From Panorpa germanica (lineage: Eukaryota > Arthropoda > Insecta > Mecoptera > Panorpidae), in assembly GCA_963678705.1 (NCBI GenBank), contig OY783204.1, forward strand, positions 20,470,759-20,534,758: a DNA stretch of 64,000 bases. Reading direction: 5' to 3'. Position 1 is the stretch's first letter. Each line of letters starts with the position of its first letter. A program made the translations under genes and the position numbers. Below are positions 24,521 to 63,100 of the stretch, one piece after another. The notes under the pieces are model-generated. The model did not search any database and had not been told where the DNA came from. It was given only the letters and a program-made list of their open reading frames with translations.

Positions 24521-25013
24521 AATTGTGCCTTTCGGCTTTACAATCTACAGTATTATATTTCTAATACATTTCATTCCTATATACATTCCAAACTTAAAAC
24601 TAAACTTAAACTAAACTTAAAATCTTCTCGACTTTTACTACTTCCAAAAGTGCTTTCTGCTTCTTCTTCTTTTGGCCCTCTCTATTATTCTCCACCAGCT
24701 TATTACCACCAGTTTATTCTCCTGTTTTTCCTTTCCTTCTTACTATTTCCGCCATCCACCTCTTTCCTTCACTGCCTCCCTTTAATAGCTGGCCAATATT
24801 CCTTTCGCTTGCTACTTTTTCCTTACACTCAAACTTAATGTGCTCCAGTGTTTCGTCCTCCGCTCCACACATTCTACACTTTCTTTCCTCACTCTTTTCC
24901 CAGTATCTGTTTCCTTTTTCCTCATTTCCCAATCTAAACCTTGCTGTTCTTCTTATGTGTTTTATGTCCTTTTCTATAAGGTACTGAGGCACATTATTTT
25001 CCCATAACCTCAT
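24521..25013 (-). mobile_element. 3' end of a non-LTR retrotransposon (ORF2 C-terminus)
   Basis: A 99-codon minus-strand frame (25013 to 24714) encodes the C-terminal tail of a LINE ORF2 protein. It has an R-x-R-L-G-N stretch followed by the zinc knuckle CRMCGAEDETLEHIKFEC (spacing C-x2-C-x8-H-x4-C). This combination is typical of the R1, jockey and related clades. The reverse transcriptase and endonuclease are missing, so the copy is 5' truncated near 25013, as usual for LINEs. The 3' untranslated part runs down to about 24521 and ends with GTAGATTGTAAAGCCGAAAG before an AT-rich tail. A second fragment with the same 3' end lies at 27498-27740. Confidence 0.85.
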
Positions 25014-25907
25014 ATTTCATTAATTATTTGGAAACCAATAATTTAAACAACAATTATAATAATGCACACTTGCCAAAGGTTTGTGTTCTATGTATTTATA
25101 AACATTAAACTGTTGTTAATCAACAGCCAATTAAGCCGGTTTTGTTTTTCTACACTTCTAGGCAGGGGTGTAGTGGGGAGTAAGCTATTAATTGCAGTAG
25201 CGCGTGTATGATGATGCAGATTCAGATGCATTTCCTACAAATTCTATTACAACACTCAACGCTATGTACAGTGCACCAGGAAGTCTAATGTTGTCAACGG
25301 AGCTGTCAACATGACATTCGCCAATCTTTACAATTTGTTTGTACATATTTAAAATTAGATACAGTTGAAGTGCTACATATTTTAATTGTTGTAAGTGTGC
25401 GTTTATAATGAAAAATTGCATTCGGAATATTCAAATTATTTAAAGTCTACTCTTCTACATTATTCTAGATAGTCTTAAACATATGGTAGAAAACTTATAT
25501 ATTCTGGTTATCTAATATGCGTTTATTCATATTAATCAGTGCCGAATTAATCCATATTGGACCGAGAGGTTATCAAAAAAGTATAAATAATATGCTCGAA
25601 TTTCTCGCAAACTCTTTTAAAAAACTTTTTTCATATCTCCCACGCAAAATCAATTGTATCTAGTCAAACCGTTTTCTTTTTCTTGGGTTGCAATCCTGGG
25701 AGATCTCCATTTCGATCAGTGTTCTCAGTTGTTATTTTTATTCTAGTCGAACATAATTGAAGCTTAACCAATTAAAAAACTTAGGTTAACTTTGTCATGA
25801 GTAAACTGCAATTAAAAAACTCATTTTTTAGGTTAAAATTTAAATATGTCATAACTGAAAATTGAAGGAACAATTCTAAGCCGTTTTTATTTAACAGATC
25901 ATTAAGG

Positions 25908-29293: not shown

Positions 29294-29412
29294 ATGGGTT
29301 TAGCTCGTGAAATGAACGATTTGAAAGGTAATATGACACGGCATTCGCAGGATTACAGTCGGAGGGATCTGAAAGCCAACTTGCATAGAAACATGACGCG
29401 AATGCTAAGCAG
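29294..29412 (+). CDS. bun: TSC22/bunched, alternative first coding exon (distal)
   Basis: This is a 39-codon open stretch starting MGLAREMNDLKG and ending MTRMLS, followed by two bases (AG) of a split codon and a consensus donor, AG|GTAAATAG at 29413. The phase matches the acceptor at 60049 exactly. The joined product would read ...MTRMLS-S-ASGTSAVAIDNK, the layout of short TSC22-domain isoforms, which have a variable N-terminus fused to the common TSC box. The peptide is basic and contains an imperfect internal repeat (NDLKGNMTR and RDLKANLHRNMTR). I do not recognise it from a named isoform. It lies 30.6 kb upstream of the shared exon and is on the same strand. It could still belong to another gene, but the composition (GC-richer than its flanks), donor quality and phase argue for a real exon. 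The ATG is preceded by AAA, a good insect start context. Confidence 0.65.
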
Positions 29413-29889
29413 GTAAATAGTATTTCTATGTTATTTTTTTTTCATATAGGCACAATAAACTCATTAAGCATAGTTCATTGGAAAAGTTAATGCGGAAATC
29501 GTAAAAATATATTAAGTATTGTCTTGAATACGAATAAGCTAAATGTCTAGGATTATATTTTAGTATAAAATATTAATACCTAAGTCTGGATGGCGTGATC
29601 TTAAATGTGATTTTAATTGCAGCCCTGAAACAGTCTGCCTTAGTTGCAGAATTTATTATAGTCTGGAACCCAAAATTTGTCTTTATAGTTCTTTATTTTC
29701 GTAAGCTGAACTGAGGCGGTGTTTTTTTTATTACTTTCTAATCCTTCCAGACTTGCTAAATTTTTCACAGGATTATTGCTATCCTTTTTATAAAATATTT
29801 TACTTCTTCCTGTCGGGTATATTTGTTTTGATGCAATAAAAATATTTTGACCCTTTTTTTCTTGGTAATAAAATACAAAGTATTATTTT

Positions 29890-31090: not shown

Positions 31091-34000
31091 GCGGCACTTC
31101 TAAAAGGATTGCGATTTTGAATGACGAGTATTAAAAATGAATATAATTTATTAATCAGAGGTGATTTACTTGAAAAACATCTGTGTAATAAAGAGGAGAT
31201 CTGAGATCGAATCCAGCTTGTGAACGATATTTTAATACTTATGAAATTAATGACATGATATAACGAGAACGTGAACCTTCTCTATAATAACACGTCAAGT
31301 GAGGACTTGTAATTTTCTTTAAAGAACAATATGTGTCATATTCTCAATTAATGATTCTAAGTTTTTAAAAACAATCGTAAGAAAATTACTATTGTTATAT
31401 CACAAAACTTACGTATAACATAGGTCGATGTAGGGTTCGTATGTTAAATGCAAATTTTAAAAATCAAAATCTACAAATTTAACTTTTTCTACTTCTAAAG
31501 AACATTAATAAATATACACGTATATTTAAATATTCAAGATAATTGTAAGGAAAGTCATTTTATTGTGAGCATGCTCAAACTGCATAAAATAGAAGAAGGC
31601 TTTATAAAATAAACGGCGTCTTTCTAAAACAAAATTTTACCTACACTTTTTTTAAATTTTGAATTAAGCCTATTTTTAGACAGACTTGTATACGTCGCAA
31701 AAATATAGGGCAACTCTAACCATATTATTAACCAGACGTCTTTAAAGCAGTTTTTACAATGTACCTGGCGACAGAAACTAAAGAAATTTATTGCTTTGAG
31801 AGGTAATATTGTCTCGACAAATATTTCCAAAGGATTCAAATATTTCAAAAGGATTAAAGTAATAAAAACTAAAAATCTAAAAATAAACTAATAAAGTACG
31901 ATTTATTTTATGATATAGTCAGCAGCTTAAATTTTAGTTACCCTTTTCTACTCATAACGTAAGGGTGGACGCTCACCCTTACCTGAAAACATGTACCTGT
32001 GGGCCGTACATAGTAGGCGGACTCTCTTAAAACATCTTATACAAGCATGACGAACGTTCCCCCCACTCTTATTGTTGGTTATAATAAATGAAACACACAA
32101 AAATTTTGATTTTTGCAAAATATATTTAATAAGTAAAAAACCGAAAATAATAATATAATACACATAATAAAAAATTAAAAGAGAGTACATATCATAATAG
32201 AATCCTGATATAACGGACAAAATGGCGAAAAGGATGATGAATAAATCTACTATAAGTTAAAGGCCTATTATAATTCTTTTTTCATGCTTTTATATTTGGT
32301 AATTCACATTTTAAATTTACTTACATTCATTTTTGCAAGTTCTTTATGCTCTACATTGTCACTACTATTCTCGTTGGATCTTTTATAATCTTCTGTTTCT
32401 TTAAATTTACTGAATGACCTTTCAACACTAGCTGTTGTTACCGGCAATGTAAAAAATATGACATTATTGCAGTGTGTATCTCAGAAAAGTAGCTATCCAA
32501 TTATTTCTAGAAGTAATTTTATTTATCTAGACCGTATTGTTAAAATTATATACTTTTCTCAGTTTACTTGTCGAAGGGCCCCGCACACATGGGGCCGAGA
32601 GGTAGTCTGCTTTATTAATGAATACAAGTTCATATATTTTCCTATAGCAATCACTTCTGGATTGTGATTTAATTTAATCCGCCCCTGATCGTAACTGCAT
32701 TCTGCTCTTATAACTACAATTAATGATGTCCTATTATTGACAGTCACGTATTATATGTTATATCATCAATTACCAGTTCTTCATTTGTTTTCTAAGCTTA
32801 ACTACTACTACGTAACAAGACTATTAATATTTTTAATTATAGTACTTGACCTTGAGCTCTAACATCTAAACATCTACTAAAATATACAACAAGAAATATA
32901 TAAATTACTGTTTTTAAAGAAGCATTGTGACATCACCATTACTAATTTTATAAATTCCATCACTTGGATTTGTCAAATGGCTATCAGCCAGGTTCACTAT
33001 TTCATAAATTTCCTATTTTGTAGAGAAAAAAATTGTTTTTTTCAAAAGACTTTTGGCGTCCCCGGATTTTTCCCTGAATTTCCTGGAACTTTGGAAAAAC
33101 TGGAAAAAAAGTGACCCCTTTTTTGTTGTATAACTTAGAACTTATATCTAGAACTTATATCTAGAAAGGTAAAATTTTGCATGTGTATTACGCTATTGAA
33201 TGCGAACATACGAGTATTTCAAGTCAATTCAAAATTTTCATTCGAGTCAATTCAAAATTTTATAAAAGGGGCTCTAAGAAATTTAAGGGATTTTTTGGGA
33301 TTTTTTTTTAAGGGAAATTTTGGATTGTGTAATAATTGAATATCATATTAATAAAAGTTCAATATTTCAAAAGTTTATTTGGAGGGACGGGGGCGGTTTT
33401 TGCCGAGGGTAAAAATTGTGCTAGAAAGTTGAATTTTTTTTATATAAGCGCTTTGATACCTAATTTACAAATCAAAAAAAGGTGGTCCAGAAACGCATAA
33501 ATTGAAAATATTTGTTATTTTGTTGAAAAAAAAATATTTTTTTAGTCGGTTTATAAGAAAAATTATTTGTTTTTATATGTAAAATTTATATAGAACGTAT
33601 TAAATATTTCATTTTAAAAATGGAATTAAAATTTGAAATGAAATTCAATTCACACACAAAAGACAGTCGTTGCTTACGATGGGGATGGTATATTCTATAA
33701 ATATTATAAAATAGAAATAATCCCGCCCCAAAAAAGGTTTAGCCAATAAACCACCCCCACCCTAAGTAAAAGGGGTGGGTGCTAACTTTTTTTCTTTTTG
33801 GTATATCTAAGTAATACACATTTCTAAATTCAGTTGTATACAATCCTTTGACTGATCAAGTATTGTTTATTAATATTCTGGTGCTAGCGCATTTATTAAA
33901 AATTTATAATAAACTTATATCATTTTAAAGTAGTGTTCAAACAATTGTGAAGCATAGTGATTTTTATTACAGTAATTACTCGTGAGCTAGTGTATCGAAA

Positions 34001-34184
34001 TATATTATTCATTCTGCGTTGTCCACTTTATATAGATGGATGTTGTGCTCTGTATCTTGGTGTAACAAGCTAGTCGCATTTAGCAAGTGAATCAGTGTTT
34101 TTAGTGCATATATAAAGAACTGTTCAAAGTTTTTAGTGATATATAGTGTTACAATTTGTGTGTTTTGCTTTTCACATCATAATT

Positions 34185-36122
34185 ATGTCTAACTCACAAG
34201 CGTATTTGGGAAGGCGGTCGTCAACGTCATCTTTAATACAATACGTGCTTATTAGTGCTCAAATAAAAAAAGAAAAGTCTCATCCGTTATATCCACTACA
34301 AATCGAAAACAGTTCAAATAATAATATCAATAGACGCGGGTCGGCACCTGCTCTAGCATCAGGAGGTTTCCTGTCAGCTACACCTCAAGAAGATTGTAAC
34401 AGTGTCCAATCACCGGATGTATCAGATACGCAAAATTCAAGTAATTGTAATACTAATCATGCTTGCAATTCATCTACTAATCCTACATCATCATCAACCA
34501 TTAACACTTTAAAAGAATCATCTTTACAAAGCCCTTCTCAAGAACCCATTATGAAAGTAAAAGTTGTTATCCGTGAAGGTCCTAAAGTTTATACCGTGCA
34601 ATTAAAAATAATTGATAAACCACGAACAAACGTTTCTAATGAAAACACAAAATCAAAAGATGAAACAGTAAATTCAAGACAGCAAGTTCATTTTCACTTA
34701 CCCATTACTAAGGCAAACGTTGTTAACCATGGTGGTTCATCTACAAATGTTGACACTAAATCAAAAGAAGATAGTAAGAATAATTATTTATCCCAAAAAG
34801 AAGACAACACAAAAAGAAATTCAAGACAAGAAATCCACCATACTACAGCCGCACAAATTCAAAATGATCGAAGTAATACAGCTCTACTTTACGCTACTCA
34901 AACGCCTTATCATTTCCACTTACCTATTACTAAGGCCCAAAAAGAAGACAACACAAAAAGAAATTCCAGACAAGAAATCCAACATACTGCAGCCGCACAA
35001 ATTCAAAATGATCGAAGTAATACAGTTCCACTATACGCTACTCAAACGCCTTATCATTTCCACTTACCTATTACTAAGGCCCAAAAAGAAGACAACACAA
35101 AAAGAAATTCAAGACAAGAAATCCAACATACTAGTACTACAAGTTCATTTATTCATTTAAAAAGTTGCCTTAAAAAGTCAAATAAGAATCATCTTAAATC
35201 TAAACCGTTGAACCCTTCTCAACGTCATGTTCGTTTCGTTTTACCCATTACTGTGGCAAAAGTTGGAACCCTTGATGGCCCATCTACAAATGTTGATGCA
35301 AATATTCCTACCAGTAGCACTAAATCAGAAGAAGATTGTAAGAATCATAATTCATCCCGAAAAATAAATTCAAGACAAGAAATCCAACATACTAGTGCTA
35401 CAAATTCATCTATTCATTTAAAAAGTTGCCTTAAAAAGTCAAATAAGAATCATCTTAAATCTAAATCGTTGAATTCTTCTCAACGTCATGTTCGTTTCGT
35501 TTTACCCATTACTGTGGCAAAAGTTGTAACCCTTGGTAGTCCATCTACAAATGTTGATGCAAATATTCCTACCAGTAGCACTAAATCAGAAGAAGATTGT
35601 AAGAATCATAATTCATCCCGAAAAATAAATTCAAGACAAGAAATCCAACATACTAGTGCTACAAATTCATCTATTCATTTAAAAAGTTGCCTTAAAAAGT
35701 CAAATAAGAATCATCTTAATTCTAAACCGTTGAACTCTTCTCAACGTCATGTTCGTTTCGTTTTACCCATTACTAAGGCAAAAGTTGTAACCGTTGGTAG
35801 TCCATCTACAAATGTTCATGCTACTAGTAACACTGAATCAAAAGATGATTTTAAGAAAAATAGTGCTACAAGATCACCTGTTACATTTGAAAATATTGAA
35901 AATATATCAAATACGGATCATACTAAACTGCCGGAATTACAAAATCATGAAAATGATACAGCTACATCAATCTCATCTGTTACAGTTGAAAATATTGTTA
36001 ATATACCAAATAAGGATCATACTAAACCGCTGAAATTACAAAAGCTTCAAAGTAGAATAACTAAAATATTAAGTTCAGTTTTTATATTAAAAAATAAATC
36101 TAAAATGTCAAATGAGGATTAA
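34185..36122 (+). CDS. Tandem-repeat Ser/Asn/Lys-rich protein with SCLK...RHVRF modules; possibly long bunched exon
   Basis: The first ATG is at 34185 (MSNSQAYLGRRSS); the open frame begins slightly upstream but without an earlier ATG. It encodes 645 residues. Residues 1-130 are polar, with RRSS and RRGS sites. Residues 163-560 are modules that start NSRQ and end LPIT-x-A, six times (LPIT at 172, 246, 294, 353, 440, 527). Two are 48-residue units (204-299) and three are 87-residue units (308, 395, 482; the third diverges at its end). Each long unit carries SCLK (327, 414, 501) and, about 20 residues later, RHVRF (347, 434, 521). This is the order and chemistry of SILK and RVxF docking motifs for protein phosphatase 1. 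There is no signal peptide, membrane segment or recognisable catalytic domain. The C-terminus has two VT-x-ENI-x-NI-x-N-x-DHTK units. The TAA at 36120 sits where a sister unit has CAA, so the frame may have been longer. It lies between two bun first exons on the same strand. It may be the rapidly evolving long-isoform exon, a separate nested gene, or a decaying gene. Confidence 0.6.
   Translation: MSNSQAYLGRRSSTSSLIQYVLISAQIKKEKSHPLYPLQIENSSNNNINRRGSAPALASGGFLSATPQEDCNSVQSPDVSDTQNSSNCNTNHACNSSTNPTSSSTINTLKESSLQSPSQEPIMKVKVVIREGPKVYTVQLKIIDKPRTNVSNENTKSKDETVNSRQQVHFHLPITKANVVNHGGSSTNVDTKSKEDSKNNYLSQKEDNTKRNSRQEIHHTTAAQIQNDRSNTALLYATQTPYHFHLPITKAQKEDNTKRNSRQEIQHTAAAQIQNDRSNTVPLYATQTPYHFHLPITKAQKEDNTKRNSRQEIQHTSTTSSFIHLKSCLKKSNKNHLKSKPLNPSQRHVRFVLPITVAKVGTLDGPSTNVDANIPTSSTKSEEDCKNHNSSRKINSRQEIQHTSATNSSIHLKSCLKKSNKNHLKSKSLNSSQRHVRFVLPITVAKVVTLGSPSTNVDANIPTSSTKSEEDCKNHNSSRKINSRQEIQHTSATNSSIHLKSCLKKSNKNHLNSKPLNSSQRHVRFVLPITKAKVVTVGSPSTNVHATSNTESKDDFKKNSATRSPVTFENIENISNTDHTKLPELQNHENDTATSISSVTVENIVNIPNKDHTKPLKLQKLQSRITKILSSVFILKNKSKMSNED
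34794..35081 (+). repeat. Two tandem 144-bp coding repeats
   Basis: Units start at 34794 and 34938 (QKEDNTKRNSRQEI...) and end in HFHLPITKA. By eye they differ at about six of 144 bases. A third, truncated start at 35082 runs directly into the first 261-bp unit, showing that the two repeat types share the NSRQEI head. The multiple-of-three length keeps the frame. Confidence 0.9.
35106..35862 (+). repeat. Three tandem 261-bp coding repeats
   Basis: Units start at 35106, 35367 and 35628, exactly 261 bp (87 codons) apart. The second and third are nearly identical until about 35780; the third then diverges. Each encodes HLKSCLKKSNKNHL and SQRHVRFVLPIT. The high identity indicates recent duplication or homogenisation by unequal exchange. 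Confidence 0.92.
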
Positions 36123-36488
36123 AATCATGAAAGTAATACACCTGCATCACCTGAAACTAATAGACACTTTACTGAACCTAAGAAAACTTCTATTGATGCA
36201 GAAAATTTACCTACTTCAGAATCACAAGACGATGATAAAGAAAATGTAGATGGCAATTTATTATATCGGGATTATATTCAAATCAAGCGTCCGTTTGCCG
36301 AACCTTTGACTGAAATCAAGAATCGAAGAAATCTCGGACATTAAATTTTACATCAAAGTAATTTAAAATCATCTACTGTTGACGAAGATACTAAATATAA
36401 TACTTAATCAGGAAATTCTCACATTCATCATCTAAATTATATCATCAAATCATTGTATAAACATTCTCGAAGAATTACTATTCCAGAG
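36123..36488 (+). pseudogene. In-frame continuation of the repeat protein beyond three TAA stops
   Basis: Reading on in the same frame past the TAA at 36120-36122 gives 73 protein-like codons (starting NHESNTPASPETNR, including ESQDDDKENVDGN), then TAA at 36342-36344. A further 20 codons follow (SSTVDEDTKYNT), then TAA at 36405-36407, and then SGNSHIHHLNY... to 36488 (ITIPE), where a possible donor GTAATA begins. There is no frameshift over this distance and the composition matches the upstream protein. The bases around the first stop align with 35940-35969, where the equivalent codon is CAA (Q). This looks like decay by nonsense substitution, or a transcript using stop-codon readthrough. Confidence 0.55.
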
Positions 36489-36794
36489 GTAATAATCATT
36501 TGCTAACAATCTATAAAGTGTCTTAAATCATTAAGAGCTGTCATCTTCAGTATATATGGTTCAATCAAGAAATCAATACAGTTATCATCCATATCTTCTT
36601 ACAAAATAATGAACTCATTCGCAATCAGAGCTAATCATCAATGCATTCTTCATCAAATCATGTTCAAAATATCATTCGTTCATTAACATCATCTACTAAC
36701 AAAGAAGAGAAGCCGCATGTATTTTCATCATCTTCTAACACTTCATCAATCATCAATCATCAATAAATCGTTGGGATCTTCATCATGTATTTAA
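36489..36794 (+). pseudogene. Decayed Ser-rich coding sequence
   Basis: The frame used upstream closes here, but another frame is open at 36641-36766. It encodes 41 Ser/Asn/His-rich codons (starting MHSSSNHVQNI, with STNKEEKPHVFSSSSNTSS), much like the neighbouring protein. This suggests that indels broke an originally continuous reading frame. TCA/CAT-rich trinucleotide composition persists through the stretch. Confidence 0.35.
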
Positions 36795-37057
36795 AAAATA
36801 TGTGATATTTTCTCAGCAACAAGTTATATTCCAGCTCATACAACAATGCATAAACAATGTTCAATTGATGAATCTCCCAAATTGACCAGTGCAACAAATA
36901 GAAATGCATCTTCAAGTGTAGTAGTGCTTCGGAAGAAATCTAGGAGTCAAGATCCTTTACCTAAAGAAACTTTTTTAAATAATTCGGAGACTTATTCCAC
37001 AAGTGACAATAGTTCTTCAGTCATAAAATCAACCAGAAGAAACACTTGGTGTATGAA
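36795..37057 (+). CDS. Last open segment with phase-2 donor; possible bun long-isoform exon end
   Basis: An open stretch in the same frame as the 34185 ORF runs from 36795, contains an ATG at 36846 (MHKQCSIDESPKL), and ends ...STRRNTWCM plus AA at 37057. The strong donor GTACGTGA follows at 37058. Two bases of a codon are left over, exactly what the TSC-box exon at 60049 needs (AA+T gives N, then ASGTSAV). A TTTTCTCAG acceptor at 36808-36816 could start it as an internal exon. The segment is Ser- and Lys-rich with SVVVLRKKSRSQ. I do not recognise a domain. Read as part of one ancestral block, 34185-37057 would be a 2.9-kb long-isoform exon with stops; read alone, it is a short first or internal exon. 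Confidence 0.4.
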
Positions 37058-38299
37058 GTACGTGAAGTATTTTCTACATTTTAATTATGTTTTATGTATA
37101 TACTAATATTTTGTCTTAATTATTTTGTTATTTAATTATTGTATTTAATTATTCGGATATATTACTTCTAAGAAAATAGTTTTAAGGACCTGATGGCGTG
37201 ATAATTTTAAGTCGGTTAATAATTATAAAATTTCAAACTTAAATTAGAATTACAAAATTTTAAAAGTATCTTAGAAATTTGTTTTATATAGACTAATGAG
37301 TCATAGAAATGTATGCGGAACAAAAATATAGAAAATAAACAAAGTTATCTACATGTATATATTATACTTGAGGAAAAATTAAAACAATATGTACACACTT
37401 GTATGGCGCTACATTTTTCTGCGAAATTTTAATACGATAAAACTTTCTTATCAGATACTGTGATACTATACACTTACATTTCTTACTTACGCTACATGCT
37501 AAGAGGGAGAAGTGGTTAGAAATATTATCACATCTGATCTAAAATTCAGTTTTCACAAAGAAAAAAATAAGATCAAAAAACAAAGAGACTGCTTGTTTAC
37601 TTACCATACAAGGTGACTCAAAAATACAAAATCCTTTTCTAACAATGTAAGCTGTTATATTTTTGGAACACTCTGTTCTCATTCTCATACGTGTGTACAT
37701 ATTGTAAATCAAACACTGCTCTAATCACACGCAGGACAATGATATTTGAACTGAATCATATTTTTGATAAGATTATTTCTCATTACAAACGAAACTATTT
37801 TTAATTAATTAAAGTATTTATAGTTATCGATTATAATTCACGAGTATCTATAACGTCGAAATATACAAGTGTATTGATTTATTGATAAGCATTTTAAATT
37901 GTGAACTGCCTTTATTCTGTGATATGCTGTTTTGAACTGAGTACATATTTAATAATCAATAATAAAATTTAATTGATGAAATTAAAGTAACCTATTTATT
38001 CAATGTGTTCTTTTTCTCTGACGTCATGAATTGTATTGGTGTGATATTACTTTGTTTGTTAATACTGGCAAAGAAAAACTTAACCAAATTTTCACATTTC
38101 ACTAAAATTTTATGTGCCATTCTCAGAGCATATATATGGGCATAGAGAACAAATAGGAACATATACCTTTCTCTCTCGCACACATCTTTTAAACAAATGA
38201 ATATCACACAAGTGTAATAAGACTAAATTTAATTGATTGGTAAGGAATATATAAAGTAGTCTGTATTTTAGCTGAGATCGTTAAGACGTTGAGCTTGAC

Positions 38300-43299: not shown

Positions 43300-43878
43300 T
43301 AGGTACAAGACGGATCACAATGCACAATGCAAAAGTTTATCTCACACTAATACGAAATATATGAAAATGAATTTTTCCAAGTAAAAATTATTATTTGATG
43401 CATATAATAGTTTAATAATTAAAAAAATACATATAATTAATGTCATTCATATTAATTCTATTCAAATCCAAATTAAATATTTGTAAAAAGTCATAATTAA
43501 TTTGGCAACACTGTCAAAAGAAATGTATCATGATGTAAAACTTAACTTTATTCATTTCTTGGAGTATGATCTCCTTTTAATTAGAATTTCCATCTCGACG
43601 TACCACTTGCAACGTTGCCGGGACATGTCCCACATTTACTGTAGTTGACTACTTTTATTTAATAATTTTCGAAAATATATATTTTTGTGATAATTTTCTT
43701 TTTTGAAAAGTTTCAAAATATAATTTGATATATGTATATAGAAATTGGCTATTCTTAATCATTAAACAAAACTTTAAAAACTAGATCACTTAAATTTTAA
43801 GACAGCAGCATGTATTTTAACTATTTTGATTGATCTTTTTAATTTCACGATATTTCCATGACTACATTTTCTACTTCC
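43300..43878 (-). mobile_element. TTAA-flanked element, diverged copy 3
   Basis: It is flanked by TTAA at 43296-43299 and 43879-43882. The left end GTAGGTACAAGACGGA is a diverged form of the GGAGGTACAGGACGTA terminus. Internal landmarks shared with 61098-61838 are GAATTTTTC, GCATATAATAGTTTAATAA, TTTGGCAACACTGT and GCAACGTTGCCGG. At 579 bp it is shorter than the other two copies because of internal deletions. No transposase is encoded. Confidence 0.75.
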
Positions 43879-49778: not shown

Positions 49779-49879
49779 ATGAAAGCTAAAGTATTAAACG
49801 TGCAATATCCCTCCGTTGTTACCAAACAAGATGTACTCAGAGAGGTTGTTATGAAATATATAGACTATTTCTATCCAAA
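49779..49879 (+). CDS. bun: TSC22/bunched, alternative first coding exon (proximal)
   Basis: ATG at 49779 opens 33 codons starting MKAKVLNVQYPSVVTKQDVL and ending YIDYFYP, plus two bases AA, then the strong donor GTGAGTAG at 49880. Unspliced reading would hit TGA one codon later. Joined to 60049 it gives ...YFYP-N-ASGTSAVAIDNKIEQAM, a short TSC22-domain isoform. Such proteins are leucine-zipper transcriptional regulators with a variable N-terminus; insect bunched acts in growth and patterning downstream of several signalling pathways. The ATG is preceded by CAAA, a good start context, and lies about 200 nt after an initiator in a GC-rich promoter. I recognise the gene from the downstream exon, not from this peptide. 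Confidence 0.85.
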
Positions 49880-52800
49880 GTGAGTAGTCGATAATCGAAT
49901 TACTTTATTTTACAACAAATAAACTATTGAGACATAAATACATGACCTACATAATGTTTTTAATGTGTGCGTTTAAAAGCGTGAGCCAAATTTAACACGT
50001 CAAATTTGTTTTTAAAGCTTTTTGGTCTATTTTTTAATGTTATTTTCAATGATGATATTTTAAATGTCAAAATATATTAAGTATGGCTTCATGGTTCGTA
50101 TGAAACCTTGTCTTGTCGACTCACGAACATTATACAGCCGATTCTATACAGATACAAAATATATAAAAACAACATGGCTGCCTTAAAAGTATCACACGTA
50201 TAATGAAGGTGTTTTTAAACTAGCTATTAATTGTGTCAAGTAGAAATCTTGCTAGAACGAATACATTTAATGCTTTACGAATATTTATAAGATTTGATAA
50301 ACATTTAGTTAGTAGCGCTGACATATATTTCCTTATATAGAGATTGTCACCTGACTATATGTTTATTATTATCCTATTTTTAAACAAAGAACATTAATTA
50401 TAACCTTAAAAAATATCTATGCTTACAAAATAGCATTTAAAATATTCAATAAGTTGTTTTCTAATTGTGTAATTTTAGACAGGTTGTTTTTAATGCCTTA
50501 AAGAAAAACTATACGCCTATCAGCCTTTGGAACTTGCACATGAGTGTGTAGTAATATTACAGGGTACTAGATTGCATGATACTTGTGGCATGACTAGATA
50601 TTATGATATCAATGCATGTACATTGTTCGTTTACATTCTTTTTACCCCTATCATTGGATTAATTAAACCAGCTGGTTAAGCAAGTCTTTTGTTATTTTGC
50701 CACGGGCTGTGGGGTACCTAGTTTTAAGATACGCTCTATGCGTATAGAAACACTGATTTTGTTCTTGGATCTGCATTAGACCCTGACTGCGTACAAACAC
50801 TACGAGTATGTAGTTTGATGAAATTTGAGGTGCGATGTTTTTAGCAGTTAGTTAATGACAGCAAAGTTCTGCCATCAATCATACGATCTACAAATGCGCA
50901 TTAGCATTTTTTTAAACGTCAGCTTAATGTATTTTATAATTAAAATTGCTGATTTAGGTCATAAAAAGGAATTGTTTACATTTTTATCTTGCCTTGTAAT
51001 AGAAAACTTTATTGAAGTAAATCCTTCATAGATCGGTTGTTAATTATATTAACTGAAAATGGGCATAACCTTAGTAATTACTAATAAATGTGTAGGCTAA
51101 GACTAACATTTAATACCAGCAAACATGGTGTGTGAAACAAGTGTCATATTCAGAGGTATTTGTCATTAGTTGAAGCTTATAACTTAAAATTTACACTAAT
51201 GCAATAATTTACGATGGATAGAAAAGAATGAGTTTGTTTCGCTACCTGTCAAATTATTTACGGACACTAATGGCCGCACCCCAGATTATTAGAGCCGTAA
51301 TTTAAGAATTTTGGGAAGCGTTCAAATCAGTATTACATAATTTCGTATTAATTAGTTCACAATTATTAATCTGAAACTAGCAACAACATATTTATGTGCT
51401 ATTCTTTAAGATAAGACTGTGAATACAACTAGACAATAAAACCAATGCATTTAATGGTTACCTTAATTAAAACTCTTTGGTATGAGAATACAATAGAGCA
51501 ATGCAATTGAATTTTAACCTAAAAATGAATAATTTGTTTTCCATACTGGCAACACTTGAAGTTGCCTTATCTCAATATGGAATTACTATAACTCGCATAG
51601 TACTATGTATACTACGAGTGTTTAACCTTCAAATTGTTGTTTGCATGCATACAAATTAAATTAAATAAGCTTACAAGACTAGATACATGAATACGTCATA
51701 CTAGAGAACCTGTTTTCTCCATCATGGGGCCAACAGCAGTCGATGTTCGACAAGTCTGTTGAGTTGTTACTCTGTAAACGTACAGGATAAATAAATAGTT
51801 AATCTGTGTCGACGCACTCAGCCATTTAAGCTATTCACTTAACTGATGAAGCGGAAATAAATACATTATAAAATGAAACCTTTGAAAATAAAAGAAAACC
51901 TGGAGAAAACTGGTTCATTTCTCTTACTTGTTTATTCATTTTGACGTAACTTTATTATTAAGTCATAGTTTTGAAATATGTTACTTGTTATAACCAGTAC
52001 CGTATTCAGGCGTTGGCCCCTTTTTATGCTCTCATCCACAATACACTTCTCATTGTGAAACTATTCCTTAGATATAAAATACACAATTGAAAGATGGAAT
52101 AAAATACTGTTTTGGTAAACAGTTTTTTTAGTATTTCTGGTTTTATAATTGGCAATACTTCTATAAATTAAAAGGGACGTTGAATTTTGAAATGTGTCTG
52201 TATTCAGTTTGTAGTGATTCAACAAAGCAGATAGATCTTGTTAAATAAACCTGTTATTTTTAATTTATTTTGTTTAAAGTTATTAATTTTTTCAATTGTT
52301 TTGTTTTATCATATGGTCGTAGAAGAAATTATCCTCAAGGTATAAATATTATATTAAAGTATGAATTTTATTGCATTGATTATTTGTGGATCCAAAAATG
52401 ATTTTGTAAGTTCTTAAATTCTATAAAAAAATTAATACATAATGTTATTTACTTTTTTTTAATTTTAGTTATTTTTTCTTTTAGTTATTTATTAAATATT
52501 TTATAATTTAATTGAATTTGATAACGAAACACACAAAACATTTTAATGGTTTGTTTAAACAGAATAAATATAACAATTATTACTTGTTTTAGTTAAAGTT
52601 TAGTTGATAATTCATGAATCGTATTTTTAAATAAATTACATTATTATAATGTTAGATTTAAATATATAAAAATGTAAATATTAGAAAATATTTACGTTGC
52701 GCATGGCTAGTCCTCCATTTTGAATTTATTGATGCTTCCAGTACAATGTTATATTAGTAAAGTAAATTGTAAAATGTTAAAAGTAAATACTTTGATTCGG

Positions 52801-56637: not shown

Positions 56638-56642
56638 CTTAA

Positions 56643-57387
56643 GAAGGTACAGGAGGTTAACGTAAATGATGAAAACGTTGTGAAATTTGGAGGGTCGATA
56701 CAAATAGTTAAAATACATGCTGTCTCAAAATTTTAGAGACCTAGGATTCATAGTTTTCTTTTTATACATGATTAAAAATAGTCATTTTCCATACAAATGA
56801 TAATTTTTAGCTCAATTTCATCACATAATATAACTTTTAACTATAAAAAAATGGTGACACGGCTTTCAAAAACTAGGTGTATATAAAATAATCTTTTCTG
56901 TAACTATTGCAAAAAGAAAATAATCAAAAGGATACCTATTTACGAAAATATTCAAATAAAACCTTTAAGAAACAGTAAATGTAGGTTATTTGCAACGTTG
57001 CAAATCCCAATTTGAGCGGGAAATTCAAAATCGGAATAAATGTTATATAAAATATAACAATTTATTGGTCAAAGAACCAAATCACGCATGCGTCAACACA
57101 CGTAAATTTACAGCGTTGCCAAATTTATTATTCCCTTTTCAAAATATTTAATTTGAATTTAAATTGAATTAATATAAATTTGATATTAATTATAGGTAAT
57201 TTTTCATTTATTTAACTATTATATGCATAAAAAAATCTTTTTAACTAGCAAATAGCAGTTTAATAGCGAATTGAAAAATTCGTTTTCAAAGATACAGTCC
57301 CAATATTTGCTCGTCCTTCATGTACTTCGTATTTTGCATTTCGTATTACCGAGATATACATTTTTGCATTGACGGTACGTCCTGTCC
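56643..57387 (+). mobile_element. TTAA-flanked element, copy 1
   Basis: TTAA flanks it at 56639-56642 and 57388-57391. The left end reads GAAGGTACAGGAGG and the complement of the right end GGACAGGACGTACCGTCAAT. Over about 745 bp it is the inverted counterpart of 61098-61838, sharing GACACGGCTTTCAAAAACTA, CGCATGCGT, AAATTTACAGCGTTGCC and TGTACTTCGTATTTTGCATT. No ORF is intact. It lies in the intron 2.7 kb before the TSC-box exon. Confidence 0.85.
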
Positions 57388-60048: not shown

Positions 60049-60100
60049 TGCTTCTGGTACGAGTGCCGTTGCTATTGACAACAAGATCGAACAAGCTATG
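60049..60100 (+). CDS. bun: TSC22/bunched, common TSC-box exon
   Basis: The exon is 52 nt long, from the acceptor TTCTTTTCAG to the donor GTGAGTTC at 60101. With the last two bases of any phase-2 upstream exon it encodes x-ASGTSAVAIDNKIEQAM and ends in phase 0. SGTSAVAIDNKIEQAM is the near-invariant start of the TSC box in the TSC22 domain family. The family sequence continues DLVKSHL and a leucine zipper, which must be encoded beyond 64000. The TSC box and zipper mediate dimerisation and partner binding. Three upstream coding segments in this window (ends at 29412, 37057 and 49879) are phase-compatible with it. It is the firmest gene assignment here. Confidence 0.93.
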
Positions 60101-63100
60101 GTGAGTTCAAAAAACATTTATTTATTTTTAATATTCAATTTTTTAAATGTAAGTCGTCAATTTTGTAAACGTATACATGTCTACAACTATATCCGGTAAT
60201 CTTTATCACAATTTTTATAACATTCATTTATATTACGCCAACTTTTTTAAATGTTGTTACAAAATAAATTAAACCCTATTTCCACTCACTCAGTTTTAGT
60301 GTTAATTTAAGATTTTAACCTAAAATGGCAAGTGTTACACAATTCAACTGTGTTTTTAATTACGTGTTTTTAAAGTTTATACCTTAACACCTTTTTTAAC
60401 AATTAAAGATTCTTTCTTGCGGATCTTTTTTGATTAAATATTACTATGTATGTATGTATGTAAGGTAACATTCATGCTTTGACTTAAGACTTTCTCTAAT
60501 TTTAAATTTGGTCTCGTTTTGTCTTATTAACACCAGCTATCAAAATTACAATGTAATTGAAACATCAACATTGTAGAATGTAATCAATTGTTTAAGAAAT
60601 CATTTTATTTAAAATACATTCTTAAGTGATTGTGAAATTTATAAACTATCTCAAGTACAATTTTATCTATAACAATTGCAAGCCGATATTATAAATAGAA
60701 ACACTTGTATATTTCCGTTATCATAAGAAAAAAACTTATAAATTGCTAAATACTTAATTGGAAACTAATCTAGTAATAATTTTATTTATTTTGTAATAAC
60801 ACTTGAAAAGTTTCCGTGATATATTCGTAATGTACTTTATGTAAATCCTCTTATAAATTGGTTAATATATTATGGAACATTCAGACTAGAGTAATATTTA
60901 TATACGCTATGTTTTGTTTCACTCACGCTCATTTTATTATGGAGAGTGCGAGCGAAACATAAAATATACTGCACGGGTCTGGATGGATTATTACACGTTG
61001 CATAAAATAAGGAAGGTTGCATAAAAAGACATAAATAAGGTCTAGTACACACCCGAATATGTTGGAGTTGACTTCGAGCCGAGCCAACATCAGTTAAGGA
61101 GGTACAGGACGTACCGTCAATGGAAAAAGTTGATCTCTCGGTAATACGAAATGCAAAATACGAAGTACATGAGGGACGAGCAAATATTAGGACTGTACCT
61201 TTGAAAATGAATTTTTCAATTCCCTATTAAACTGCTTTTTGCTTGTTAATGCATATAGTAGTTTAATAAATGAAAAAATACCTATAATTAATATAAAATT
61301 TATATTAATTCAATTTAAATTCAAATTAAATATTTTGAAAAAGGAATAATAAATTTGGCAACGCTGTAAATTTACGTGTGTTAACGCATGCGTGATTTGG
61401 TTCTTCGACAAATAAATTGTTATATTTTATATAATATTTATTGAGATTTTGAATTTCCCGCTCAAATTGGCATTTGCAACGTTGCCGGTCATAACCCACA
61501 ATTACTTTTTCTTACTGGTTTTATTTAAATATTTTCGTATATAGGTATCCTTTTGATAATTTTCTTTTTGCAATAGTTACAGAAAAGATTCTTTTATATA
61601 CACCTAGTTTTTGAAAGCCGTGTCACCATTTTTTTTATAGTTAAAAGTTATATTATGTGGTGAAATTGAGCTAAACATTATGATTTGTATGGAAAATGAC
61701 TATTTTTAATCATGTAGAAAAAGAAAACTATGAACCCTAGGTCTCTAAAAATTTGAGACAGCATGTATTTTAACTATTTGTATCGACAATCCAAATTTCA
61801 CGACGTTTTCATCATTTACGTTTACGTCCTATACCTCCTTAACATGAGCCTTAGTTAAAATTTCACGAGTCTTTAGTTAAAATAATTCTTAAATAAAAAT
61901 AATAATCCTAATTTTTATATTTGTGTGATAAACAATACAATAATATATTCTTTTTAATGTATTTTCCATCGGACTCAAAAACGATCAGACATGTTGGTCG
62001 AGCCAACTTACGCAAACGTGTATAGGACCTTTATCTGTTAACTGCCAATCGTACCAATAGCATCTCATTGCAATTCACATCTTCATATTTCATTCTGATA
62101 ATCTTTAAGTAGTAGCTCTTTGTGTGGACAGACATATATTAATAGAAGATCATCTCATCGAGAAATGAACCAGATCTATCAAACTCGAATCCCGCAGTAA
62201 TATTAGCAATGTTTTAAAAGCTTTCACTTTTAAATGAATATATTCTGTTTTAAATTTCGAAATATTTATTTAGATTTATCTTTATTAATTAAGGTTAATT
62301 ATTATAATTTAAATAATATTTCAAAACCCTTTTATTCGTATTTAAAATAGATCCATTTTCTAAATAGATTAAATTACAAAATTATTATAGTTTTATAAAT
62401 AAAGATATGTGATGAGACTATTTTTAGAAATTCAACACCAATAAATAAGCGATATTATTTAGTACTTTCCATTGTACACATTTCGCGGATGTGCAGATAG
62501 TTTTTGTTTTAACATGCGCTTTGTAACTGAAAGTGGGCCGGAAGAAAATATCACAATTTTGACTTCTTTAAAAAGACCTTAATAAAAAGTCTCACGGTAA
62601 CATTTTTAAAAGTATTCATATGTGAAAACAGCGAAAGGTCATAGCTAAAATCGAATTTGAAATAGGTCCTCTGAAATTTGGAGTACAACATCCAGTTAGT
62701 ATTTAATTTTGGGCAGTTTTTGTCTGTATCTCACTAGCTACAACCCTGCAACGGCAATTTGAGTAAAAGATCCCAAAAAAAAAAACAGTTTTCAAATTAA
62801 ATTTGTTTTTACACACAACAACATTATCATGGACTAGTTTCTAATAGGCCCATAATAAAATAGTGATTATAAATCCACATACAGTGGCGCGATATAATTT
62901 TAAAAGGGCTTGGGCAAATTTGAATTTGATGGTCCCACAGTTTAAATTTCAATGTTTTTGATACCATAATGAATTTATAAATGAAACGATATATTATAGA
63001 TTCTATTATATCCAATGGATTTCTTTTTAAATTGGTTTGTTTAATACCACAGGTGCCCCATATATTTTTTATTGAAAAAGTTCATCTACGTATTACAAAA

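Follow-up and report, generated by a model that had tools for sequence, protein, structure and literature searches.

The 645-codon open reading frame (ORF) at 34185-36122 of the window (the whole 64,000-nucleotide stretch of Panorpa germanica DNA analysed here) is interpreted as the 5' portion of an alternative bunched first exon. It is proposed that 34185-37057 is probably one ancestral alternative first exon of this TSC22 family gene, which was expanded by repeats and then truncated by a stop codon; most likely the exon is of a known kind, its repeat expansion is restricted to this lineage, and it is now truncated. The stretch has a long open frame, tandem repeats, a coding signal that runs past the stop, matching splice phases and, at both ends, weak but collinear matches to a lepidopteran isoform.

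Alternative first exons of the bunched locus

The surrounding BunA-type, short-isoform, TSC-box and zipper exons put the ORF within the series of alternative first exons of bunched; it lies 5' of the TSC-box exon on the same strand, and its placement inside the bunched locus by the original prediction is confirmed. The ORF and the exons of the locus are as follows.

C1:20386812-20389648 (L012): long BunA-type exon some 115 kb 5' of the ORF; an open frame leads from its ATG to its donor, which is in phase 2
29312-29412, + strand: bunched short-isoform first exon (...YSRRDLKANLHRNMTRMLS), coding from a putative ATG, with the phase-2 donor GTAAAT at 29413
34185-36122, + strand: 645-codon ORF, ATG at 34185, TAA at 36120-36122
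49779-49879, + strand: bunched class-1-type short first exon (...KQDVLREVVMKYIDYFYP), from a possible ATG; donor GTGAGT at 49880, phase 2
60049-60100, + strand: common TSC-box exon (ASGTSAVAIDNKIEQAM), with a phase-2 acceptor
79489 in window numbering (L003:5489), beyond the window: leucine-zipper exon, downstream of the TSC-box exon

The ATGs and donors of both short exons were read by eye. In tblastn, an Anabrus simplex isoform N-terminus (P0014) matched the first short exon at 29354-29410 (E 3.8e-7), and the second has a tblastn match at 49803-49877 (E 2.6e-9). The BunA-type exon keeps both long-isoform motifs (KKTSSFQITSVT; RFKVVKIESTEPFKRGRWMCMDYLD), which we take to be those named motifs 1 and 2, and contains very long glutamine-rich runs with both motifs still kept. 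These three first exons are separate from the ORF and open, and their phase-2 donors supply the phase required by the TSC-box acceptor. The arrangement is like that of the Drosophila locus, where alternative first exons are likewise set on a common TSC box and zipper and a long BunA-type exon carries motifs 1 and 2. According to the accessible part of PMC4653243, Drosophila bunched gives long isoforms such as BunA and short ones such as BunB-E; the long isoforms promote growth, BunA binds Madm, and the short ones, which share the zipper, may antagonise the long ones, so that the choice of first exon matters. The open-licence literature searched contained nothing on bunched and TSC22 in Hymenoptera or Lepidoptera, and nothing joining bunched, 'alternative promoter', Drosophila and isoforms.

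Organization of the repeat ORF

The length of the ORF is beyond chance, because no other stop-to-stop frame of the window lying clear of it exceeds 138 codons. Frame and motif positions bear out the six NSRQ...LPIT modules first described for it, with NSRQ at residues 163, 212, 260, 308, 395 and 482 and LPIT at residues 172, 246, 294, 353, 440 and 527 of the predicted protein. The three longer modules do carry SCLK (residues 327, 414 and 501) and then RHVRF (residues 347, 434 and 521), with a spacing of 20 residues in 3/3, and the other three have HFHLPIT only (residues 169, 243 and 291).

34671-35105, + strand: modules M0-M2 (NSRQ...HFHLPIT), without SCLK or RHVRF
35106-35825, + strand: modules M3-M5, with SCLK at 35163, 35424 and 35685 and RHVRF at 35223, 35484 and 35745

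The modules span only about residues 163-547, the first 162 and the last 98 or so residues being non-module sequence. TRF resolved two arrays, one with a 144-base unit (2.4 copies, 95%) and one with a 261-base unit (2.8 copies, 96%); both units are multiples of 3, with 0% indels. Over 34200-36100 the codon-usage score is above zero in frame 0 and below zero in the other two frames, a result that is partly circular inside the ORF, the score having been trained on the ORF less its duplicate repeats. The charge-hydropathy line puts the protein on its disordered side (0.397 versus 0.434).

The protein has one match in its own 464-Mb genome. It had not been recognised in the original prediction, and a whole-ORF search of a database containing insect proteins likewise returned nothing at E 0.01 among the 7991 best word-sharing candidates scored. 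A Pfam scan gave nothing above cut-off; the sub-threshold match to VanA_C (E 0.04, 14.5 bits versus a cut-off of 23.5) is taken as chance. Viral contigs gave 78 pattern matches, with 0 relatives among them, and a PDB sequence search with module M3 gave 0 matches up to E 10. No orthologue with the repeats is present among the matches listed in the whole-ORF, viral-contig and two bunched-relative searches. A retroelement origin of the ORF was considered and provisionally set aside, the array matching itself alone in the self-comparison of the window; scans for tRNA genes and Rfam families (gathering) gave 0 hits in the window.

Coding signal beyond the stop codon

The sequence 3' of the ORF was divided as follows.

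36120-36122, + strand: stop TAA, which ends the 645-codon ORF
36123-36816, + strand: decayed coding stretch, in frame 0 to about 36450 and in frame 2 at about 36635-36763, with a frame change on each side
Just before 36817, + strand: possible acceptor TTTTCTCAG, scoring -1.95 versus 9.1 for the TSC-box acceptor
36817-37057, + strand: 3' piece, open in frame 0, ending in STRRNTWCM + AA; ATG at 36846
37058, + strand: donor GTACGT, phase 2 in the ORF's own frame

Past the stop, in sequence on which it was not trained, the codon-usage score reaches 43.6 at 36150 in frame 0, against a background maximum of 24.4 (90-base windows at 75-base steps on the + strand, in three frames, over 1-33000 and 38000-59900). 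The score drops to 4.7 at 36450; frame 2 then scores best at 36600-36760 (11.9 and 21.0) and frame 0 again at 36825-36990 (19.7 and 24.3), all four values being within the background maximum. Stops in frame 0 stand at 36120, 36342, 36405, 36504, 36684 and 36792. The frame from the ORF into the TSC box is interrupted by stops and frame changes from 36120 to 36816, so that the repeat ORF as now read could be a TSC22 isoform in frame only if the breaks were spliced out with an intron. Readthrough of the stop at 36120 was discarded, since two further in-frame stops (36342 and 36405) follow within 290 bases.

A partial repeat copy 180 bases upstream of the stop has CAA at 35940-35942, followed by the same AAT-CAT-GAA that follows the TAA. 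Between this copy and the sequence from 36121 on, 25/29 bases are alike, the C/T base lying just outside the aligned stretch; the match was seen in 3/4 comparisons (0, 0 and 1 of 1000 shuffles reach the score), and the fourth gave another alignment (19 of 1000 shuffles). The coding signal past the stop, the CAA in the partial copy and the phase of the donor at 37058 argue for one long exon that suffered a nonsense change and subsequent decay. This donor is weak (2.57 versus 6.5 for the TSC-box donor and 6.7 for the BunA donor) and ranks second among the GT sites of 34150-37300, behind a GT at 34340 (2.82). Because of the acceptor-like sequence before it, 36817-37057 may have been an exon in its own right from the start.

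Lepidopteran matches to both ends of the proposed exon

Relatives of bunched were collected as 229 proteins retained from the best 120 of 1462 and the best 120 of 1319 matches, and all 120 proteins of the first listing, as well as all 229 together, were read for motif matches. An LGRR start was found in 3/229 and both exon ends in 2/229, all from Lepidoptera; unlike the rest of the arrangement shared with Drosophila, the LGRR start was not found in the fly isoforms among the 229 (two fly sequences were read). The two proteins with both ends are Pieris napi P0001 ('TSC22 domain family protein 2-like isoform X3') and Bombyx mandarina P0002 (isoform X1). As in the sequence studied here, both have LGRR[SN]...LLQ near the start (residue 12) and RRNTWC, which in both isoforms stands directly before SASGTSAVAIDNKIEQAM. 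About 90 residues precede the TSC box in these two proteins, without repeats and without SCLK or RHVRF, whereas here LGRR and RRNTWC are about 950 codons apart, with the repeat array and stops between them.

34206-34268, + strand: LGRRSSTSSLIQYVLISAQIK, matching LGRRSLSSKLLQVATAQAHMK of the Pieris napi isoform P0001

When the Pieris N-terminus was compared with 304 kb by tblastn, the two best matches were 34206-34268 and 37029-37052, on the same strand and in the same order and frame. Singly these matches are weak (E 0.97 and 1.8), and 65/200 shuffled queries reach the top score; a collinear top pair was given by 0/200 shuffled Pieris queries, and 2/200 gave two same-strand matches no more than 3 kb apart, in each case to two repeat copies. 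With the Bombyx N-terminus (P0002), tblastn missed the start of the ORF and gave RRNTWC only behind better-scoring unrelated matches (E 3.6). Direct alignment of the LGRRS region with ORF residues 1-80 gave a score reached by 0/500 shuffles for P0001 and 16/500 for P0002; with the whole ORF these numbers are 8/500 and 182/500, and for the RRNTWC piece 2/500 and 9/500. The miss with the Bombyx query and the weak donor at 37058 lower our confidence in the exon reading and raise that in an independent nested gene.

In the history that we propose, an ancestral exon homologous at both ends to the N-terminus of the lepidopteran TSC22/bunched isoform would have grown in its middle by tandem duplication of NSRQ...LPIT modules in this lineage. 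The stop at 36120, probably a CAA to TAA change, would then have cut the exon, and the stretch behind it decayed; the 3' piece at 36817-37057, still open, could be spliced to the TSC-box exon, either starting at its own ATG or as the continuation of an upstream exon. Single-exon ancestry, the order of these events, expression and any activity of the product are inferences. Translation from 34185 would give a protein of 645 residues, largely disordered and lacking both TSC box and zipper. It could therefore not pair with other Bunched isoforms through them, and any action it had would go through short linear motifs in the repeats, PP1 docking being one candidate. The product of 34185-36119 would stand outside the competition between long and short isoforms unless spliced to them. 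If this history is right, an exon grown about tenfold by repeats and cut from its zipper would clearly illustrate how isoforms are gained and lost within a growth regulator.

Alternative interpretations

The exon may also be wholly dead, 34185-36816 being a pseudo-exon whose 5' part is open because its repeats are young or by chance, a reading that we find possible but rather doubtful. It agrees with the stops and frame changes from 36120 on and with the near-neutral differences between the repeats. Synonymous and non-synonymous differences number 2 and 4 for M1-M2, 2 and 8 for M3-M4, 2 and 7 for M4-M5, and 2 and 13 for M3-M5; with the non-independent M3-M5 left out, the other three pairs pooled give a pN/pS of 0.90 (Fisher p 0.81, with low power either way), so that purifying selection between the repeats was not detectable at this power. 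On 37 shared codons, pN/pS is 0.67 (M0-M3), 0.74 (M0-M4), 0.84 (M0-M5), 0.92 (M3-M4) and 3.91 (M3-M5), with 0 synonymous and 10 non-synonymous differences for M4-M5; Fisher p is 0.11 to 1.0 over the six pairs, of which M0-M4, M0-M5, M3-M5 and M4-M5 are non-independent and were kept out of the pooled ratio. Against a dead exon stand 645 codons (444 non-redundant) without disablement, whereas five disablements (the stops at 36120, 36342 and 36405 and two frame changes) were counted from 36120 to 36816. At equal rates over 2,629 bases this contrast has p 0.0013, or 0.0047 with duplicate repeats removed, the count having been entered by hand and the first stop lying on the boundary. The contrast favours a product, but breaks that accumulate behind a first stop are not independent of it. 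Since exon ancestry, a dead exon and PP1 docking overlap and are not mutually exclusive, the likelihoods given to them need not sum to one.

If the ORF were instead a nested gene confined to its taxon, independent of bunched and equipped with a promoter and a 3' end of its own, this would fit the single match in the own genome, the whole-ORF search without a hit and a possible core promoter (33802-33835, + strand: TATAT at 33802 and the Inr-like TCAGTT at 33830, a pattern match to the core promoter consensus), together with an AATAAA at 36762. Further TATA-like strings occur near 33802, and such promoter and polyA patterns are non-diagnostic. The ends shared with a lepidopteran bunched isoform, the donor at 37058 in the same frame with the right splice phase, and the coding signal that continues past the stop all speak against a separate gene, which we judge unlikely. 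Splicing within the repeats could instead reconcile the ORF with the TSC box: GTAAGAAT, a hypothetical phase-1 donor at 34774-34781 with the same string at 35338 and 35599 (+ strand), might be joined to the 36817 acceptor, so that the interrupted stretch would be spliced out as an intron and the TSC22 zipper of the resulting Bunched isoforms would carry zero, one or two SCLK-RHVRF modules. All three sites are in the phase needed by that acceptor, an agreement that counts once (1 in 3) because the sites are copies of one repeat, and 36765-36816 is intron-like before TTTTCTCAG. The donors are poor, however (0.38, -0.16 and -0.16 versus the TSC-box and BunA values given above), as is the acceptor, and such a fusion appears improbable.

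Candidate PP1 docking motifs

The original prediction likened SCLK and RHVRF to the docking pair of PP1 regulators, with C in place of I, and suggested that the ORF would be a multivalent ligand; in the corresponding reading each of the modules M3-M5 would dock one PP1, giving up to three phosphatases per chain. RHVRF is a regular match to the RVxF pattern in 3/3 long modules, whereas SCLK fails [GS]IL[RK], the ORF having 0 strict SILK matches, although SILK is optional in PP1 regulatory proteins and SCLK stands, as usual for SILK, N-terminal to RVxF, 20 residues away. Of 20,000 shuffles, 0.83% give the relaxed pair with its order and spacing kept, a test that is post hoc and uses a relaxed pattern, and 20% of shuffled versions of the non-redundant protein contain an RVxF match by itself. 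Behind RHVRF stands VLPIT rather than acidic residues, modules M0-M2 are without the motif, and pN/pS between the repeats is about 0.9; random substitution between repeats, named in the original prediction as evidence against it, is what was found within the low power of the comparison. The host has PP1 catalytic genes (32 matches). Residues at the positions that we take to form the RVxF and SILK pockets are kept in 15/15 cases in L031 and in 14/15 in L032, the exception being L243I at the edge of the alignment piece; this check took in 2/4 fetched PP1 loci.

Published PP1 partners bear on both halves of the pair. In the portion of PMC3792071 available, REVRF of LAP1B is a mapped PP1 site, SILK is said to be always N-terminal to RVxF, acidic residues are often found behind RVxF, and LAP1B's own SILK match did not mediate binding. 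Inhibitor-3, in the text of PMC10066265 at hand, has a SILK-like element, a basic linker and RVxF in the same order as here, and fills the SILK pocket with the non-canonical LTIK; its SILK removal barely altered affinity with RVxF and CCC present, yet the element contributed once RVxF was lost. Compared with inhibitor-2 and inhibitor-3, the candidate pair studied here has C for I in SILK and three tandem copies. With SCLK off-consensus, RVxF matches frequent in shuffles and the ORF most likely a truncated exon, the self-contained multivalent PP1 ligand is unsupported in the form originally given, and we regard three-site docking as quite unlikely.

A functional pair would link TSC22 signalling to a phosphatase. 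A more elaborate version, in which the bunched exon is a cassette combining a PP1-docking pair and a donor in its repeats, so that splicing would set the number of docking sites on the TSC22 zipper (none, one or two) and the unspliced form would be a free three-site PP1 ligand, is highly improbable. The open-licence literature searched contained nothing joining TSC22D, protein phosphatase 1 and RVxF; for RVxF, tandem repeats, multivalency and PP1 together, one paper, on Rif1, was listed.

Other elements in the window and genome

An inverted pair of 0.75-kb elements (56639-57385 and 61104-61842, 91% alike) flanks the bunched TSC-box exon, and a third, older copy lies at 43374-43859 (about 69-73% alike). 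Fragments of a reverse-transcriptase C-terminus (CR[MV]CGAEDETLEHIKFECKEK), which we take to be of a LINE-like family, occur at 24714-25016 (- strand) and at C1:20348352-20349185 (L016, + strand). A LINE fragment at first suggested Hymenoptera as the host order, but neither the mitochondrial COX1, judged by eye, nor the bunched matches point to any one order. Upstream of the window there are an 862-codon open frame with ankyrin-like repeats, judged by eye (C1:20311570-20314155, L019, - strand), and, 13.7 kb before the window, a 434-codon open frame (C1:20457056-20458357, L005, + strand) that presumably resembles a BED-finger/hAT-type transposase. COX1 has 20 matches in the own genome, one a full copy on C249 with COX2 and ND2 adjoining and 19 partial on other contigs; the partial copies, most of which have internal TGA, are probably nuclear mitochondrial insertions.
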